Below, piece after piece: positions 8,267 through 32,206 of a DNA stretch of 43,162 nucleotides. The notes beneath the pieces are model-generated. The model did not search any database. It saw only the letters and a list, made by a program, of their open reading frames with translations, and was not told the origin of the DNA. A program made the translations under genes and the position numbers. Source of the stretch: Acidimicrobiales bacterium. GTDB lineage: Bacteria; Actinomycetota; Acidimicrobiia; Acidimicrobiales; UBA8190. How positions within the stretch are numbered: position 1 is the stretch's first letter; each line of letters begins with the position of its first letter. Location of the stretch: the NCBI GenBank assembly GCA_035531755.1, contig DATKSK010000076.1:1-43162 (forward strand). The letters run 5' to 3'.

Positions 8267-8384
8267 CGCTCGCACCTCCCTCCCTCGAGATACTCCCGGC
8301 GTGTGGCCGCTGTGGTGCGCAGCCTAATGGCGGTCGGTGCGGTCAGCCCGTCCGGTCGATGTGAGGGCGAGGGCCTCCTCGGGG

Positions 8385-8437
8385 GCGGCGACGTGGGCTC
8401 TCGAGGCGGCGAGATGGGCTCTCGAGGGCGGCGACAT
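8385..8437. repeat. About 21-base imperfect direct repeat, x2.5
   Basis: GGCGGCGACGTGGGCTCTCG, then GGCGGCGAGATGGGCTCTCG, then a partial GGCGGCGACATGGGCC, one after another with 1-2 base length differences. Confidence 0.8.
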
Positions 8438-8470
8438 GGGCCGAAATCGAGGCGACCGGGTCGGTCGGGG

Positions 8471-8538
8471 CGGTCGGGGGCGACCGGGCGGTCGGGGCGG
8501 TCGGGGGCGACCGGGGCGGTCGGGGCGGTCGGGGGCGG
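8471..8538. repeat. 27/28-base tandem repeat, x2.5
   Basis: The unit begins CGGTCGGGGGCGACCGGG and ends CGGTCGGGG; copies lie at 8471-8497 (27 bases), 8498-8525 (28 bases) and a partial at 8526-8538. CGGTC and GACCG within the unit are complementary, so each copy could fold into a small hairpin. Confidence 0.88.
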
Positions 8539-8717
8539 CATGCTGGCTCCTTCCGGCAGCCCTACCCGCGGCGCTGCCCGGCTCCCGACCGACCGAACCC
8601 CGAGCCGGGTGTCCCCGACCGAACCCCCGGGCCGGGTGACGTGCTCCGCCGGGGAGCCCACGGAGGACCCGGGGACGGCGACCGGAGGGGATCACCCGGG
8701 ATCGCCCCGCGGTCGAC

Positions 8718-8879
8718 GATGACCAGGGCGATGACCAGGGCGATGACCGGGGAGATCAACCAGGGCGATGAACGGGGAGATCAACCAGGGCGATGACCGG
8801 GGAGATCAACCAGGGCGATGACCAGGGCGATGACCGGGGCGATCAACCGGAGAGATCAACCGGGGAGATCAACCGGGAA
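8718..8879. repeat. 12/13-base tandem array, 13 units
   Basis: Thirteen consecutive units of two kinds, GATGACCRGGGM (12 bases) and GATCAACCRGGGM (13 bases), with a few single-base variants. Three consecutive 25-base pairs (8742-8766, 8767-8791, 8792-8816) form a higher-order repeat. It ends 36 bases before the pgsA -10 hexamer. There are no spacers, so it is not a CRISPR. Confidence 0.95.
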
Positions 8880-8915
8880 TGACCCGAGGTCAGAGGAGCG
8901 ACCGAGGGCCGATGG

Positions 8916-8921
8916 TACGAT
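8916..8921 (+). promoter_or_regulatory. -10 hexamer of pgsA operon
   Basis: TACGAT fits the actinobacterial TANNNT -10 element. Transcription would begin near 8928 and give a short leader with a strong GGAGGAAG ribosome site (8938-8945) 10 bases before the ATG at 8956. Confidence 0.6.
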
Positions 8922-8955
8922 AGAGGTGAACTCCCGCGGAGGAAGAACCCACCCC

Positions 8956-9861
8956 ATGTTCGACGGTCGTTGGCGCGACGCTGTGGACCGCACGACGAAA
9001 CCAGTTGGCACGGCGCTGGTGCGTGCGGGGATAAACGCTGACGTTCTCACCATCTTCGGCTTGGCCATGTCGGTCGTCGCCGCCATCGTGGTCGGTTCGG
9101 GCCATCTCCTTCCCGGCATCGGGCTGCTCTTCGCCGTCGGGCTCCCCGACCTCTTCGACGGGCCGGTGGCCAAGGCGGCGGGACGCGCCTCGGTACGCGG
9201 CGCGTTCTTCGACTCCGTGGCCGACCGCATTTCCGACGCCTTCCTGTTCGGCGGCGTGGCCTGGTACCTCGCAGCGCACCACCACGGCGAGATGGTGCTC
9301 CTGCCCTTCGCCGTCCTGGCGGTCACGTCGCTCATCTCGTACCAACGGGCCAAGGCCGAGTTGCTCGGGCTGTCGGCCAAGGGCGGCCTCATGGAACGCG
9401 CCGAGCGCTTCATCCTCCTGGGCCTCTGCTTCATCGCCGGCTCGGTCTCGACGGCGGCCTTCGTTCCCGCGCTGTGGGTGTTCTTCGCTCTGCTCACGGC
9501 CACCGCCGTCGGCCGCTTCGTGAACGTGTGGAAGGAAGCCGAGGGCCCGCCGCCCTTCGTGGTGGCCGGTGTCGGGCTGGCCGACGCCGATGCCGACGCC
9601 GACGTCACGCGCCGGGCCCTCGCCCGCTGGCGCGAAGGCCGGGTCGACTCCCGCTGGCGCACGTGGCGCGAGGCCCGTGCCCACCGCGACGGCGTCGGTG
9701 TCCGCACCACGCCCCAGCGCCGGGCGGCCCAGCCGTCGGGCCGGTGGCGGGCGCGCCGGGCGGCCGTCCCGTCGAGCCGTTCGGGTCGGATCTGGCGGGC
9801 GCGGCGGGCGGCGCGGCCCGCGGCGCGCGCCGGCCGCCGGCCGGTGTCGCGCGGCTTCTGA
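8956..9861 (+). CDS. pgsA: CDP-alcohol phosphatidyltransferase, likely phosphatidylinositol-phosphate synthase
   Basis: A 301-residue membrane enzyme expected to join CDP-diacylglycerol to inositol phosphate, giving the precursor of phosphatidylinositol and PIMs. The signature DxxDGxxAR-x8-GxxxDxxxD appears as Asp65, Asp68, Gly69, Ala72, Lys73, Gly82, Asp86 and Asp90; all four catalytic Asp are present and the spacing is exact, but the usual Arg is Lys73. About six membrane segments lie between residues 25 and 200. Beyond about residue 205 there is an extension of some 95 residues that is extremely Arg-rich, preceded by an ADADAD run. The pathway assignment rests on the patA and pimA genes that follow; phosphatidylglycerophosphate synthase is less likely. 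Confidence 0.88.
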   Translation: MFDGRWRDAVDRTTKPVGTALVRAGINADVLTIFGLAMSVVAAIVVGSGHLLPGIGLLFAVGLPDLFDGPVAKAAGRASVRGAFFDSVADRISDAFLFGGVAWYLAAHHHGEMVLLPFAVLAVTSLISYQRAKAELLGLSAKGGLMERAERFILLGLCFIAGSVSTAAFVPALWVFFALLTATAVGRFVNVWKEAEGPPPFVVAGVGLADADADADVTRRALARWREGRVDSRWRTWREARAHRDGVGVRTTPQRRAAQPSGRWRARRAAVPSSRSGRIWRARRAARPAARAGRRPVSRGF

Positions 9862-9882: not shown

Positions 9883-10944
9883 GTGCCTGACGCGTCACAG
9901 CCCGAGGGCGCCGGTGCCGACGACGCCTCGATCCCCGGCGCCGACGCGACCACGGGCCCCGGTGCCGGGAGAGCGGGCCCCGGTGCCGACGGGGACCAGG
10001 GCTCCGGCTCCCGGACCGCGTACCTGGTGTACCGGTCGCTCGGCACGGCGATGCAGAAGCTGCCCGAGCCGGTGGCCGCCGGTGCCGCCGCCGCGGTCGC
10101 CGTGGCGCTCTCCGCGACGCGCAGCGGGGCCCGCGCCATGTACGAGCGGCACATCCGCCGCGTGGTGGGGCCGGGGCTCAGCGAGGCCGAGGTGACCGCC
10201 TACACGCGACGCGCCTTCCTCTCCTACGCGCGCTACTGGCTCGAAGGCGCGCGCCTCCCCGTGCTCAGCGCCGACGTCGTCGCCGACCGCATGCTGATCG
10301 AGAGCGGGTGGGAACACCTCGTGACGGGCATGGAGGCCGGCAACGGCGTGATCATGGCCCTCCCGCACATCGGGAGCTGGGAGTGGGGAGGCTCCTGGCT
10401 GGCACTGCAGGGCTACCCGATGACGAGCGTGGCCGAACCGCTCGAACCGCCCGAGATGTACGAGTGGTTCGTGGCGCAGCGAGAGGCGATGGGGCTCACG
10501 ATCGTGCCCCTCGGGTCCGGCGCCAGCGGAGTGCTCCTACGCACCTTGCGGGCGGGGAAGCTGGTTGGACTGCTGTGCGACCGTGACATCGGCGGCAACG
10601 GCGTCGAGGTGGAGTTCTTCGGTGAGCGGACGACGATGCCCGGTGGCCCCGCCATGCTCGCCCTGCGTACGGGCGCGGTCGTCCTGCCGACCGCCGTGTA
10701 CAGCGGACCGGGACGGGAGCACACCGCCGTGATCATGGACCCGGTCCCCATCGAACGCACGACCTCGTTGCGCGACGACGTGAGTCGCGTCACGCAGCAG
10801 ATCGCCCGCGATCTGGAGGAGCTCATCCGGCGTGCCCCGGAGCAGTGGCACGTCTTCCAGCCCAACTGGCCGAGCGACCTCACGGGGCCGGACGTCGGGG
10901 AGCCCGGGACGGCGGGCGGCACCCTCGGCGGCTCCGCCGCCTGA
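9883..10944 (+). CDS. patA: Phosphatidylinositol mannoside acyltransferase (LpxL/PatA family)
   Basis: A 353-residue membrane-associated acyltransferase that would move an acyl chain from acyl-CoA to the mannose of PIM. The catalytic HX4E motif is HIGSWE (His162, Glu167), followed by WEWGGSWLALQG. LCDRDIGGNGVEVEFFGE and GGPAMLALRTGAVVLP are typical LpxL-family blocks, and QPNWPSD closes the domain. Residues 1-45 are a low-complexity Gly/Ala/Asp leader. It starts at GTG 9883, 21 bases after pgsA. Its place between pgsA and pimA matches the mycobacterial PIM cluster (Rv2611c, from memory). Confidence 0.9.
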   Translation: MPDASQPEGAGADDASIPGADATTGPGAGRAGPGADGDQGSGSRTAYLVYRSLGTAMQKLPEPVAAGAAAAVAVALSATRSGARAMYERHIRRVVGPGLSEAEVTAYTRRAFLSYARYWLEGARLPVLSADVVADRMLIESGWEHLVTGMEAGNGVIMALPHIGSWEWGGSWLALQGYPMTSVAEPLEPPEMYEWFVAQREAMGLTIVPLGSGASGVLLRTLRAGKLVGLLCDRDIGGNGVEVEFFGERTTMPGGPAMLALRTGAVVLPTAVYSGPGREHTAVIMDPVPIERTTSLRDDVSRVTQQIARDLEELIRRAPEQWHVFQPNWPSDLTGPDVGEPGTAGGTLGGSAA

Positions 10945-10958
10945 CCATCGGGGCGGCC

Positions 10959-12074
10959 GTGCGCGTCGCCATGCTGTGCCCGTACAGCCTGAGCCGTCCC
11001 GGCGGCGTCCAGGGGCAGGTGATCGGGCTGGCCCGGGCGTTGACCGCGGCCGGGCACGACACGGTGGTGCTGGCCCCCGCGGACGGCGATGTCGACGTCC
11101 CCGGTCTCACCCCCGCCGCCGTGGTGCGGCTGGGAGGATCCGTCGCGCTCCCCGCCAACGGGTCGGTCGCCCCCGTGTCGCTCTCGCCGGCGGCAGCCGT
11201 GCGCGCCGTGCGCGCCGTGCGCGGCGGCGGCTTCGACGTGCTGCACCTGCACGAACCGCTGGCGCCGGGCCCCGGCTACGGCTGCCTGGTGGCTTGCGCC
11301 CTCCCCAAGATCGGGACGTTCCACCGGGCGGGCGCCAGCACCGCCTACCGGTTGCTGCGACCGCTCGCCCGCCTGGCGGCGAACCGCCTGGCGGTGCGCT
11401 GCGCCGTGTCGGCCGAGGCCGAGTCCACGGCCCGGGACGCACTCGGCGGGTCCTACGAGATCGTGGGCAACGGCATCGACATGGAGCGGTTCGCGCGCGC
11501 CTCACCGTGGACCACCGACGGCCCGACCATCCTGTTCGTCGGGCGCCACGAGGAGCGCAAGGGCCTCGGGGTGCTGCTCGACGCGGTGGGCGGGCTCGAT
11601 GCGGCGCACGCGCCGACGGTGTGGGTGGCGGGCCAGGGCCCCGATACCGAGCGCCTGCAGCGACGTCATCCACCGAGCCCCCGGCTGGTCTGGCTCGGCC
11701 GGGTCGGCGATGACGAGCTGGCGGCGCGCCTGGCGGGCGCCCACGTGCTGTGCGCGCCGTCGTTGGGGGGCGAGTCCTTCGGGGTCGTGCTGCTCGAGGC
11801 GATGGCGGCGCGCACCGCGGTCGTGGCGAGTGGCCTTCCCGGGTATGCGTCGGTCGTGGGCGACCACGCCGTGCTCGTCCCGCCGGGCGACGTCGAGGCT
11901 CTCCGCCTCGCCCTGGCGGCCGTGACCGCCGATGCCGCCGCCGGGACCGGGCGGTGCGCGCCCGCGGCGCTCGACGCCGCCTTCGAGCACGCCTCACAGT
12001 GGGCCATGCCCACCGTGGCCGCCCGGTACGTGCAGATCTACGAGCAGGCCGTCGCCGGGGCCCACCGACGCTGA
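10959..12074 (+). CDS. pimA: Phosphatidylinositol alpha-mannosyltransferase
   Basis: A 371-residue GT4-family (GT-B fold, retaining) glycosyltransferase that uses GDP-mannose to put the first mannose on phosphatidylinositol at the cytoplasmic face of the membrane. The N-terminus VRVAMLCPYSLSRPGGVQ matches PimA, with GGVQ forming the donor-side loop. FDVLHLHEPLAP and GTFHRAGAS follow. The C-terminal Rossmann domain has ILFVGRHEERKG and the EX7E motif in LGGESFGVVLLEAMAA. GTG 10959 aligns with the start of known PimA; ATG 10971 would cut into the first strand. It is 14 bases from patA and ends the operon. Confidence 0.93.
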   Translation: MRVAMLCPYSLSRPGGVQGQVIGLARALTAAGHDTVVLAPADGDVDVPGLTPAAVVRLGGSVALPANGSVAPVSLSPAAAVRAVRAVRGGGFDVLHLHEPLAPGPGYGCLVACALPKIGTFHRAGASTAYRLLRPLARLAANRLAVRCAVSAEAESTARDALGGSYEIVGNGIDMERFARASPWTTDGPTILFVGRHEERKGLGVLLDAVGGLDAAHAPTVWVAGQGPDTERLQRRHPPSPRLVWLGRVGDDELAARLAGAHVLCAPSLGGESFGVVLLEAMAARTAVVASGLPGYASVVGDHAVLVPPGDVEALRLALAAVTADAAAGTGRCAPAALDAAFEHASQWAMPTVAARYVQIYEQAVAGAHRR

Positions 12075-12108
12075 CCGGGACCGGCATCGAGGCGCCGGCC
12101 CCGGGCCG

Positions 12109-12114
12109 TACACT
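12109..12114 (+). promoter_or_regulatory. -10 hexamer of the M48 protease gene
   Basis: TACACT ends 9 bases before the ATG at 12124. This predicts a leaderless or nearly leaderless transcript and there is no obvious ribosome site. Confidence 0.55.
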
Positions 12115-12123
12115 TCGAGGGCT

Positions 12124-13554
12124 ATGACCGTCGAAGGCGCACCAGGTCCGTCGCCCCGACGGCGCTCGCGGTCCCGCCGCCGCCCGTCGGGGCAGGGTGG
12201 CGCCGCCAACGCCAACGCCAACGCCGCCGCCAACGCCGCCGGCGGCGGCGCTTCGGCGGGCGGACGGGCCGGCGGCCCGGGCGGCTCGGGATCGCAGGGT
12301 GCCCGGGCAGGAACGGGCACCGGAGGCTCCGGCGGTAGAGCCGGCTCGGGCTCCGGGGGATCCGGCGGCGGCCGGGGCGGCGGCGGTCGGGGCGGCGGCG
12401 GTCGGGGCCGAGGAGGCGGCGGCGGCAACGGCAACGGCGGGGGTGGCTCGGGTAGCGGTGGTCGCTCCGGAGGCGGGCGGTCCCGGAACCGGGGCTCGGG
12501 CGGCGGATCGAACCGCAGTCGCAGCGGGGGCTCGGGTCGAGGTCCCGGGGGTGGTGGTGGCCGCGGCCGCGGCGGGAGTGGCGGTGGCGCGGGCAGCGGT
12601 GGGCGCGGTGGCGGCGGAGGTGGGCGTGGCCACGGCGGGCGCGACTCCGCAGGGCGATCCGGCGGCCCAGGAGGCGACCGGTCGAGAGAGACGGTCGCCG
12701 TCGTCACGGCCACGAGCGACACGGCGTCGCCGGCGGTGCTCCCGGGGACCAGGCGAGACGTCGCCGAGGCCCGCCACAATCGGAGGCGGGCGCTGCTCAT
12801 CGTCGGCGTACCCGCCGCTGTCGTTTTCGCGATCGTCACCCTGGCGTGCGTCGCCGCCGGGCTGGGCGTCGTCGGTGCGGTTGCCGGTGTGGCCGTGGGC
12901 GCCGTCGTGTGGGTGTGGTTGTGGCGGGGCGCCACGAGGTTGGTCCTGCGCGCCCTCGGCGTGCGCGACGGGGGAGACGTCGAGCTCGCCCGGGCGGAGA
13001 ACATCGTGGACGGGCTCTGCGCCACCATGGGCGTCGACGCGCCCGACATCGTCGTCGTGGACGACACGGCCCGGCGGGCACTGGCGGTCGGCCGCAACAG
13101 CGGTGCCGCGGTGCTGGTCGTGACGTCGGGGCTACTGCACGCACTCGACCCCGTGGCCCTCGAAGGTGTGCTCGCCCACGAGCTCGTGCACGTGAAGCGG
13201 GGCGACATCGCGCCGGCGACCATGGCGGCAGCGTTGCTCCTGCCGTGGGCCTCGTTCCTGCCCGTCGCCGGCCTGGTGCACGCCCTCGCCGGCCGAGGCC
13301 GGGAATTCCGCACCGACCGATTGGCCGTGGCCGTGACCCGCTTTCCCCCGGGGCTCCGGGACGCGCTCGTGGTCATGGTCGACGGCCCCGCGCCCGTCCC
13401 CCCCTCGCGCCTGGCCGAGCGGGGCGTGGCCGCGGCCACGCGCTGGCTCTGGACCGTGCCGCTACCCGGGGCCCCGGGCGAGGCGAGGGACGAAGACGGC
13501 GTCGGTGAGCTCGACGCACCCGCCGTCCGCATCGCCGCGCTCGACGAGTGGTGA
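12124..13554 (+). CDS. Membrane M48-family metallopeptidase with Gly/Arg-rich N-terminal region
   Basis: 476 residues. Residues 1-40 are basic (SPRRRSRSRRRP) with an Ala/Asn run, and about 50-195 are almost entirely Gly, Arg and Ser with many RGG/GRG triplets. Two adjacent membrane segments lie near 218-265. The catalytic zinc motif is HELVH (His352, Glu353, His356) and the third ligand is probably Glu394 in GREFRTDRLA, as in HtpX/M48 enzymes. Such proteases degrade membrane or misfolded proteins with the active site on the cytoplasmic side, so the Gly/Arg region is probably cytoplasmic too. The ATG is supported by the -10 element just before it, but a later start leaving only the peptidase cannot be excluded. 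Substrate unknown. Confidence 0.78.
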   Translation: MTVEGAPGPSPRRRSRSRRRPSGQGGAANANANAAANAAGGGASAGGRAGGPGGSGSQGARAGTGTGGSGGRAGSGSGGSGGGRGGGGRGGGGRGRGGGGGNGNGGGGSGSGGRSGGGRSRNRGSGGGSNRSRSGGSGRGPGGGGGRGRGGSGGGAGSGGRGGGGGGRGHGGRDSAGRSGGPGGDRSRETVAVVTATSDTASPAVLPGTRRDVAEARHNRRRALLIVGVPAAVVFAIVTLACVAAGLGVVGAVAGVAVGAVVWVWLWRGATRLVLRALGVRDGGDVELARAENIVDGLCATMGVDAPDIVVVDDTARRALAVGRNSGAAVLVVTSGLLHALDPVALEGVLAHELVHVKRGDIAPATMAAALLLPWASFLPVAGLVHALAGRGREFRTDRLAVAVTRFPPGLRDALVVMVDGPAPVPPSRLAERGVAAATRWLWTVPLPGAPGEARDEDGVGELDAPAVRIAALDEW

Positions 13555-13607: not shown

Positions 13608-13613
13608 TAGACT
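13608..13613 (+). promoter_or_regulatory. -10 hexamer of pdxS (leaderless)
   Basis: TAGACT is followed by exactly 6 bases and then the ATG at 13620. Transcription should begin at the A of the start codon. Confidence 0.65.
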
Positions 13614-13619
13614 GGCTAT

Positions 13620-14597
<978 letters not shown>

Positions 14598-29083: not shown

Positions 29084-29155
29084 GCCGGTGACAGTCGGAT
29101 GCCGGGGGCCCGGCGGGAGTGCCGGGACGACCGTTCCCCGGCGCGCGGTGCGGGG

Positions 29156-32100
29156 ATGACACGCCCGTCCGGGCACCGGCGACGGGTGGCGACGGCCGTG
29201 CTGGCGGCCCTGGTCGTGCCCGGCACCCTGACGCTGGTGACGGGGGGCGGCGTGGCCGGCGCGGTGTCCGGCGGCATGCACCCGGCCGCGTGGGTGCGGT
29301 CGGCGGCGAGCGTGCCGACCCTGCCGACCGGCAGCCGGGCGGAGGGGGCGCTCCCGGCATCGACCGCCCTTCACGCCGACGTGGTGCTCGACCCGCGCCA
29401 CCCGGCCGCCCTGGAGGCCTTCGACACGGCGGTGTCGACACCGGGGTCGGCGTCGTTCCGTCACTACCTCGCCCCCGGGGCGTTCGGGGGAGTCTTCGGG
29501 GCGACACCGGCGACCATCTCGTCGGTGCGGGCGTGGCTCGCCGGCCGCGGCCTGGTCGTGGGCGCGACGGCGAGCGACGGCCTCGTCGTGCCGGTATCGG
29601 GCACCGCCGCCCAGATGGGCCGGGCCTTCGGCGTGGGGCTCGAGCAGTACCGCCTGCCCACGGGCCGCACGGCCCATGCACCGACGGCGGGGCCCCTGGT
29701 GCCCGCCCACCTGGCGGGTGTGGTGGCCGGCGTCGTCGGGCTCGACGACCTGGCCGTGCCCACCCCCGAGCTGGTCCGGCCCGAAGCGGCGAGCGCCAGC
29801 CCGGCCGTGAGCGCCAGCCCGGCCGTGAGCGCCAGCCCGGCCGTGAGCGCCAGCCCGGCCGTGAGCGCCAGCCCGGCCGTGAGCGCCAGCCCGGCCGCGA
29901 GCGCCAGCCCGGCCGTGAGCGCCAGCCGGCCCGAAGCCGCGAGCGCCAACCCGGCCGCGGGCACGGGGACCCGGACCGGCCCGGCCGCCGGCCAGGCTGC
30001 GACGAACGGCGCGCCCCGTACGTCCGGCCCCGCCCCGCGCCTCACCGGCCCGACCCCGACCGTGGGGTGCCAGGCGGCGATCTCCGCCAACCCCCAGAGC
30101 TCGGGTGGCCTGACGGTCGACAAACTGGCCCAGGCCTACTCGTTCGCAAGCCTGTACACCGGCGGGACGGAGGGGAGCGGCGTCACCGTCGGCGTGTACG
30201 AGCTCGAGCCCTTCACCCCGACGGACATCGCCCATTACGAGGGCTGCTTCACGCCGGCCATCACGGCCCCGGTCACGGGGGTGTCGGTGGACAGCGCCGA
30301 CCCCAACGTGGGCCCCGAGGGAGGCGAAGCCGCCCTCGACATCGAGATGGTGGTGGGCATGGCCCCACAGTCCAGCGTCCGGGTCTATGTCGGGCCGAAC
30401 GGGGGGAGCGGTCCCCTCGACACGTACATCGCCATGGTCGACGACTCGACGCTGCCGCAGGTGATCTCCACCAGCTGGGGCCAGTGCGAGGCCCAGACGG
30501 CTCCCGTCGTGCGGCAGATCGAGTCGGCCATCTTCCAGCAGGCCGTGGCCCAGGGACAGACGGTGACGACGGCGGCAGGTGACGAGGGATCCGAGGACTG
30601 CTTCTTCTTCCCGAGCTCGAGCGACACCCGGCTCCAGGACGACGACCCGGCCAGCCAACCATGGGTGACGAGCGTGGGCGGGACGACCCTGAGCGCCCTC
30701 GGCCCCGCGCCCACGGAGTCGGTGTGGAACTCGGGGCTCTTCGCCGGCACCGGCGGCGGGGGCGTGTCGACGACCTGGACCATGCCGGCATGGCAGCAGG
30801 GCCCCGGCGTCCAGAACGCGTACACCGCCTCCCCGAACACCTTCACCGGGGTGCAGCCCTGCGCGGTGAGCTCGGGGGCGGGCACGGCATCGTGCCGGCA
30901 GGTCCCCGACGTGGCCGCCGACGCCGACCCCCGCACCGGGCTCGCCGTCTACTGTTCGTGCTTCTCGGGGTGGGCGAGGATCGGCGGCACGAGCATGTCG
31001 TCGCCGATGTGGGCGGCGCTGACCGCGCTCGCCGACCAGGGACTGTCGCAGCCGGTCGGCTTCGTGAACCCCGTCCTGTACCAGTCGCGCTGCGCGGGCA
31101 GGGCCACGTTCAACGACGTGACGGTGGGCAACAACCAGCCCAACGGGTCCCAGCCGAGCGACGCGCCCCACGTCCCGGGCGGGCCCTACTACCCGGCGAC
31201 GCCGGGGTACGACCTCGCCACGGGCCTCGGGACCCCGATCGCCGCGACGGTCGTGAGCACCCTGCAATCGCCGCCGCCGGACCTGTGCCCGTCGGCGAGC
31301 GGCATCTCGGAGACGTCGGGCCCCGCCGCCGGCGGCACGGTCGTGACCATCTCGGGGTCGAACCTCGGGGGCGTGACCGAGGTCGACGCCGGCAACGGCA
31401 ACCCCGCCGACATCCTGGCGCAGTCGGGCAGCTCGATCACGGTGCAGATGCCGCCGTCGCCCACCGGTGGGTGGGCCACGGTGAAGGTGCTCGTGAAGAC
31501 GACCGACGACGCGCTCGGCGAGGACGGCTCCCTGCCGTTCACCTACGTCGGCCCTGCGGGCTACTGGGAGGTCGCCTCCGACGGCGGGATCTTCTCCTTC
31601 GGGCAACTCGGGTTCCACGGCTCCATGGGGGGCATGGCACTCAATCGACCGATCGTCGGCATGGCGTCGACACCGTCCGCTGCCGGCTACTGGCTCGTGG
31701 CCTCCGACGGCGGCATCTTCGCCTTCGGCGACGCCGGCTTCTACGGCTCCACCGGCGGCACGCGCCTCAACAAACCGGTCGTGGGCATGGCGGCCACGCC
31801 CGACGGCGCCGGCTACTGGCTCGTGGCCTCCGACGGCGGCATCTTCGCCTTCGGCGACGCCGCCTTCCAGGGCTCGATGGGCGGCACGCGCCTCAACCAA
31901 CCGGTCGTGGGCATGGCGGCCACGCCCGACGGCGGCGGCTACTGGGAGGTCGCCTCCGACGGCGGCATCTTCTCCTTCGGAGACGCCGCCTTCCACGGGT
32001 CGACGGGCGACATCCACCTCAACCAACCCGTCGTCGGCATGGCGGCCACGCCCGACGGGCACGGCTACTGGCTCGTGGCCTCGGACGGCGGCATCTTCGC

Positions 32101-32206
32101 TTTCGGCGGGCGCTACGGCGGGTTCTTCGGCTCCATGGGGGGCTCCCCGCTCAACAGGCCCATGGTGGGCATGGGTGCGCCCCCCGACATCGGCACCGTA
32201 GGATGA
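29156..32206 (+). CDS. Secreted S53 (sedolisin/kumamolisin) protease with IPT/TIG domain and five 42-residue repeats
   Basis: A 1016-residue exported serine-carboxyl protease, a class active at low pH. A signal peptide (1-40) precedes the pro-kumamolisin activation domain (about 65-205). A low-complexity Ala/Ser/Pro-Val linker (212-259) comes next, then the catalytic domain (about 300-700). The catalytic residues are Glu391 and Asp395 (GEAALDIE), oxyanion Asp476 (AAGDEGSED) and Ser613 ([13 protein letters not shown]); the calcium site is in [10 protein letters not shown]. An IPT/TIG domain (about 712-798: [19 protein letters not shown]) and five [15 protein letters not shown] repeats (802-1016) follow. 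ATG 29156 is preferred because the signal peptide starts there; ATG 29099 would add 19 residues. It appears monocistronic. Confidence 0.9.
29789..29932 (+). repeat. 18-base tandem repeat x8 in the protease linker
   Basis: Eight in-frame copies of GTGAGCGCCAGCCCGGCC (first and seventh start GCG; the eighth diverges at the end) encode Val/Ala-Ser-Ala-Ser-Pro-Ala between the pro-domain and the catalytic domain. Confidence 0.95.
31559..32188 (+). repeat. 126-base (42-residue) tandem repeat x5
   Basis: Units start at 31559, 31685, 31811, 31937 and 32063, exactly 126 bases apart. Each encodes [17 protein letters not shown], a variable AxFxGS segment, and LN[12 protein letters not shown]. Copies 2 and 3 are nearly identical; copies 1 and 5 diverge most. 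The pattern (Gly-Tyr-Trp and Asp-Gly-Gly turns) suggests beta-propeller blades or cell-wall-binding repeats. Confidence 0.95.
32199..32204 (+). promoter_or_regulatory. -10 hexamer of the DUF948-like gene
   Basis: TAGGAT ends 9 bases before the ATG at 32214 and overlaps the end of the protease gene (stop at 32204-32206). A leaderless or nearly leaderless transcript is predicted; GAGGCGACC between them could serve weakly as a ribosome site. Confidence 0.5.

Follow-up and report, generated by a model that had tools for sequence, protein, structure and literature searches.

The window analysed here is a stretch of 43,162 nt that makes up an entire contig (C76) of the genome of an Acidimicrobiales bacterium. 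Its plus strand carries the gene of an HtpX-type M48 metalloprotease of 476 amino acids (12124..13554), which was identified from the translation, from Pfam and NCBIfam matches, and from an AlphaFold model. The upstream neighbour on the same strand (10845..12074) is a glycosyltransferase by Pfam, and the name PimA that is given to it comes from gene order. The downstream neighbour, also on the plus strand, is pdxS (SOR/SNZ; 13620..14597; Pfam E 3.9e-103). Across the order the protease gene is placed between a PimA-like glycosyltransferase gene and pdxS, and among same-family relatives whose flanking sequence is long enough, most have pdxS close to the protease orthologue. In some families of the order this pimA-pdxS slot is occupied by a canonical HtpX with a short N-terminus, and in two of the loci with canonical HtpX in the slot (L047 and L048) pdxS is nearby. 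Two M48-like genes found beside pdxS in other genomes feature a degraded HExxH motif, which reads HQLSH in G137 (L044, 418-1182) and RELAR in G104 (L045, 1504-2232), and judged from these motifs both are likely inactive pseudo-proteases of the slot. Loci L067, L071, L091, and L122 likewise have no HExxH in the frame that was read.

The protein features the hallmarks of peptidase family M48. The zinc-binding motif HELVH is located at residues 352-356 (13177..13191, plus strand), and REFRTD at residues 393-398 (13300..13317, plus strand) supplies Glu394 as the third zinc ligand, so that E394-D398 forms the ExxxD motif that follows HExxH in this family. HELxH is invariant in an alignment of the 13 closest relatives. 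The protein matches Pfam M48 (PF01435) with an E value of 2.3e-9 and a score above the gathering threshold, and M48/M56-type peptidase domains were the only domains found in the protein by Pfam and NCBIfam, with no RNA-binding domain among them. A transmembrane hairpin is predicted from hydropathy and from the structure model at residues 220-268 (12781..12927, plus strand), where the model shows two long helices (model residues 2-29 and 33-63). The AlphaFold model of residues 216-476 has a pLDDT of 92.7, and its best structural matches are BepA, ZMPSTE24/Ste24p, and the HtpX domain 3cqb. The initial annotation of this gene as an M48 protease with a membrane pair, an intact HELVH motif, and Glu394 is borne out by these results.

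In HtpX the active site is on the cytosolic side, and the enzyme takes part in the quality control of membrane proteins (PMC8831704 with its references, PMC9263693). The window protein shares with HtpX the N-terminal membrane hairpin, the HExxH...ExxxD motifs, the M48 fold, and the pimA-pdxS slot. The NCBIfam HtpX models match it, the best over residues 217-371 with an E value of 3e-23; however, the equivalog cut-offs of all eight models are missed, and the best score is 82 bits, where that model requires 355. By this measure on sequence the protein is a relative of HtpX (M48B) and not a member. There are three further differences. In the window protein, as in its close relatives, the loop between HExxH and Glu is ~41 residues long, whereas it is ~80 residues long in canonical HtpX, and the second hydrophobic hairpin that canonical HtpX features between HExxH and Glu is lost or reduced, as judged from the one weak hydrophobic segment that is left in its place. 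The C-terminus of HtpX reads THPPLxERIxxLREL, whereas this group of proteins has GELDAPxVRIAALDEW in that place; the motif of the window protein, located by family alignment, is VGELDAPAVRIAALDEW (13501..13551, plus strand), and the family consensus is VGELDAPxVRIAALDEW. Finally, the window protein has a long Gly/Arg/Ser-rich tail, which HtpX does not have. The same genome holds two other HtpX-like genes (L002 and L003) with longer loops, and the window gene thus adds a derived copy to them. Where the window protein matches L003, the Gly-rich part was considered as a tail and rejected, and L003 is an ordinary HtpX-like protein. Among other genomes, HtpX-like genes of G041 (L025) and G018 (L027) have short HExxH-to-Glu loops of 34-36 residues by pattern, and L047, a family relative of G018, has a long one; more than one loss of the second hairpin is possible.

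The N-terminal tail comprises residues 1-209 (12124..12750, plus strand), features a net charge of ~+25, and has no Lys. Its composition predicts that it is disordered. The densest part, residues 41-185 (12244..12678, plus strand), consists of 86% Gly, Arg, and Ser (58% Gly, 14% Arg, and 14% Ser), which agrees with the ~150 residues of this kind that had been described ahead of the membrane pair, and Phe, Tyr, and Trp are absent from the tail. The most extreme window of 80 residues in the tail reaches a fraction of 0.99 for Gly plus Arg/Lys plus Ser/Asn/Gln. When 53% of the genome was scanned in six frames, the next-highest window of this length, among the windows listed, had a fraction of 0.86, and its frame looks off-frame by codon-position GC. 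Off-frame Gly/Arg stretches dominate such a scan; reading was therefore confined to frames whose codon-position GC looks coding-like, and some stretches may have escaped it. A search of the genome with the tail alone gave no further strong match. A DNA pattern of paired CGN-GGN-GGN codons was also tried and set aside as too unspecific (305+368 matches, compared to 225+254 in the control).

The presence of this tail in the protein depends on the start site. TACACT, the -10 box of a leaderless-type promoter, lies 9 nt 5' of ATG 12124 (12109..12114, plus strand), and pdxS features a second leaderless-type start at the same locus, with a TAGACT -10 box 6 nt 5' of its ATG (13608..13613, plus strand). 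Mycobacteria are well documented to produce leaderless transcripts (PMC3898074). TACACT, TAGACT, or TAGAAT is found shortly 5' of the ATG that opens the tail in G005, G002, G009, G014, G016, G059, G103, and G096, and the same type of hexamer precedes this ATG in L052, L053, L054, and L056; in G003 the hexamer precedes a GTG rather than an ATG. In 443 kb of the window's own genome TA[CG][AC][AC]T occurs at 70 sites, with 31 ATG or GTG codons 6-9 nt downstream, compared to 24 such codons for the 188 sites of a reversed-letter control. Because the arrangement of hexamer and start codon recurs in about a dozen relatives and is enriched in its own genome, the long form that starts at ATG 12124 is very likely on comparison of these sequences, as had been argued from the promoter of the single gene. 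Alternatively, the protein could begin near residue 195, which would leave the Gly/Arg stretch untranslated or read in another frame. Long open frames are numerous in high-GC DNA, and an antisense ORF (11994-13532) also covers the stretch, but the shared promoter-start arrangement and the coding-frame composition that is kept in the tailed relatives make a misplaced start very improbable.

The tail is recurrent. It is found in 12 of the 13 same-family genomes that are readable at least in part, and in these genomes it contains Arg, is mostly Gly/Ser-rich, is poor in hydrophobic residues, and is net-positive; contig ends truncate the sequences of G011, G001, and G013. The protein from G007, a member of the same family, has no tail, and its gene uses a GTG start with a -10 box of its own. 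Tails were also found in families f44 and f40 and in named Acidimicrobiales MAGs (L052-L054 and L056), and G117 (f9) features a basic tail. Across the tails Arg makes up 12-17% of the residues while Gly spans 7-41%. Their net charge is +7 to +25, the length is ~70-280 residues, and the order of residues is weakly kept. A further 72 related M48 loci, drawn from many phyla, were screened as well, and no such tail was flagged in any of them; 53 have an open frame of less than 40 residues available for a tail, and 4, in which the frame that was read lacks an HExxH, were left unscored. In a tree of 39 sequences the tail falls in several positions, with a minimum of 5 changes and weak key branches.

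The initial annotation described the tail by its repeated RGG/GRG triplets and proposed that it could tie the protease to RNA, ribosomes, or condensates. The triplets are present in the window copy, where residues 1-190 contain 5 RGG, 9 GRG, and 11 GGR, and three of the RGG triplets are closely spaced (at 84, 89, and 96). This longest run of 3 is, however, reached by 8% of shuffles of the same residues. The longest run in G009 is also 3 and the other relatives have less; most relatives feature 0-2 RGG and almost no aromatic residues. The check that had been suggested, whether homologues keep the Gly/Arg region, thus has a divided outcome: the tail itself is kept in nearly all same-family genomes, with G007 as the homologue that lacks it, and the RGG triplets are not kept. 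RGG/RG-box proteins, which include FUS, fibrillarin, and LAF-1, are marked by clustered RGG triplets (tri-RGG spacing). The window protein resembles them in having a Gly/Arg-rich, putatively disordered stretch with three close RGG in its own copy. It differs in that its tail has neither interspersed aromatic residues nor an adjoining RNA-binding domain, in that RGG is not conserved, and in that the tail is joined to a membrane protease. No paper on an RGG-bearing membrane protease was found in a search of the accessible literature. The charged disordered region of Bacteroides Rho, whose KE-rich subdomain drives RNA-dependent condensation, offers an analogy only: it too is charged and belongs to a bacterial protein, in this case one that interacts with RNA (PMC13269538). 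Rho is a transcription terminator, whereas the protease tail contains Arg as its only basic residue and is predicted to be tethered to the membrane. Since RGG is unconserved and no commoner than the composition predicts, and aromatic residues are nearly absent, the label of an RGG RNA-binding region is too specific, and a true RGG-type tail is unlikely. Among the relatives the conserved property is the charge and the lack of hydrophobic residues and not the RGG triplet.

The main alternative to a functional tail is that slippage of GC-rich repeats has lengthened a tolerated N-terminus, which would be translated and have no specific job. The wide variation in length and the poorly kept order of residues (z 0.3 for L010 compared to L016, which is not above shuffles) are consistent with this possibility, as are the absence of the tail from G007 and the 44 rows of tandem repeats in the window. 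A conserved N-terminal Arg cluster was considered and rejected, since a few tails exceed shuffles (fraction ~0.01-0.03) and most do not. On the other hand, most of the closer pairs do feature an order of residues above shuffles, with z of 3.6-15.9. In several families the tail occurs at the same place, with the same charge and hardly any hydrophobic residues. In f40 the make-up of the tail is kept at a locus GC of 57%, and in G101 of this family 5 of the 12 Arg residues of the tail are encoded by AGR codons; GC content alone is therefore a poor explanation. Additionally, the choice of Gly codons is mostly alike in tail and domain, the longer tails have a Gly/Arg/Ser/Asn/Gln fraction of 0.50-0.86 in the coding frame, which is higher than in both other forward frames, and the other M48 loci that were scored do not show such tails.

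Gly/Arg-rich stretches elsewhere in the same genome are also in line with a neutral origin. The clearest look-alike in a coding frame, in the first 443 kb of the genome that were scanned, is an ORF named IF-2 by eye (L139, from 2654 on the plus strand of G000:C3), whose Gly/Arg/Pro-rich region consists of RPGGG/GRGG repeats and ends in the Arg cluster RRPRRRRRN. Actinobacterial IF-2 resembles the window protein in this Gly/Arg-rich region; it differs in being a soluble translation factor with much more Pro and a Gly/Arg/Ser content of 0.70, compared to 0.99 in the protease tail. That the look-alike is a ribosome-associated protein is a point in favour of the RNA-binding proposal. The second example is a multi-helix ORF, named MurJ-like by eye (L230, minus strand from 7149 on G000:C15), which features acidic repeats in its N-terminal region and, in its C-terminal part, a Gly/Arg-rich stretch that could be a frame artefact. 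In view of the points on both sides, a neutral tail is a possible but somewhat doubtful explanation.

The orientation of the protein in the membrane was deduced from its charges. NRRR precedes helix 1 and Arg follows helix 2, a pattern that makes an N-in topology likely, with the tail and the active site on the same side of the membrane. The earlier premise that both are cytoplasmic is thus probably correct, based on the positive-inside pattern and on analogy with HtpX. We infer that the two N-terminal helices would anchor the protease in the cytoplasmic membrane with the active site facing the cytoplasm; by analogy with HtpX, the substrates that it clips there are probably membrane proteins that are damaged or misassembled. 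The translated tail of ~200 residues, Gly/Ser-rich, strongly positive, and predicted to be disordered, precedes the first helix and would most likely act by charge, reaching over the inner face of the membrane. Its predicted partners are anionic lipid in cis and RNA, ribosomes, or acidic clients in trans, and binding of such a partner would concentrate the protease at its clients. The neighbouring genes appear to encode steps of phosphatidylinositol-type lipid metabolism, with names taken from gene order and Pfam; no more than a hint at a lipid partner follows from them, because tail-less canonical HtpX adjoins pdxS in other families.

A derived HtpX-type quality-control protease of the membrane, whose disordered cationic cytosolic tail binds anionic partners by charge, is the reading that we favour, with confidence that is evenly balanced. 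It is weakened by the variable length and weakly kept order of the tail, by the tail-less G007, by Arg clusters that rarely exceed shuffles, by the preference of high-GC genomes for Gly/Arg codons, and by the MurJ-like membrane protein of the same genome, which may also carry a Gly/Arg tail. The more specific version, in which a pared-down HtpX with a quality-control role was joined in a lineage of Acidimicrobiales to an RNA- or ribosome-binding Gly/Arg tail and, at the membrane, patrols RNA condensates or ribosomes that are translating, is improbable. The protein is a derived HtpX-type protease with a real and recurrent tail. If the tail is functional, it would be a natural example of a membrane protease with a strongly cationic disordered arm, and a simple system for studying how charge alone targets bacterial proteolysis and for asking whether the arm replaces the lost second hairpin. 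Families with and without the tail can be compared, which makes selection and drift separable.

Tandem repeats are also found in other parts of the window. Dense short repeats with units of 9-37 bases occupy 8366-8878 and run up to and into the start of a CDP-alcohol phosphatidyltransferase ORF (8818-9861), and a 126-base repeat with 4.4 copies is located at 31559-32108 within a long ORF (29099-32206).
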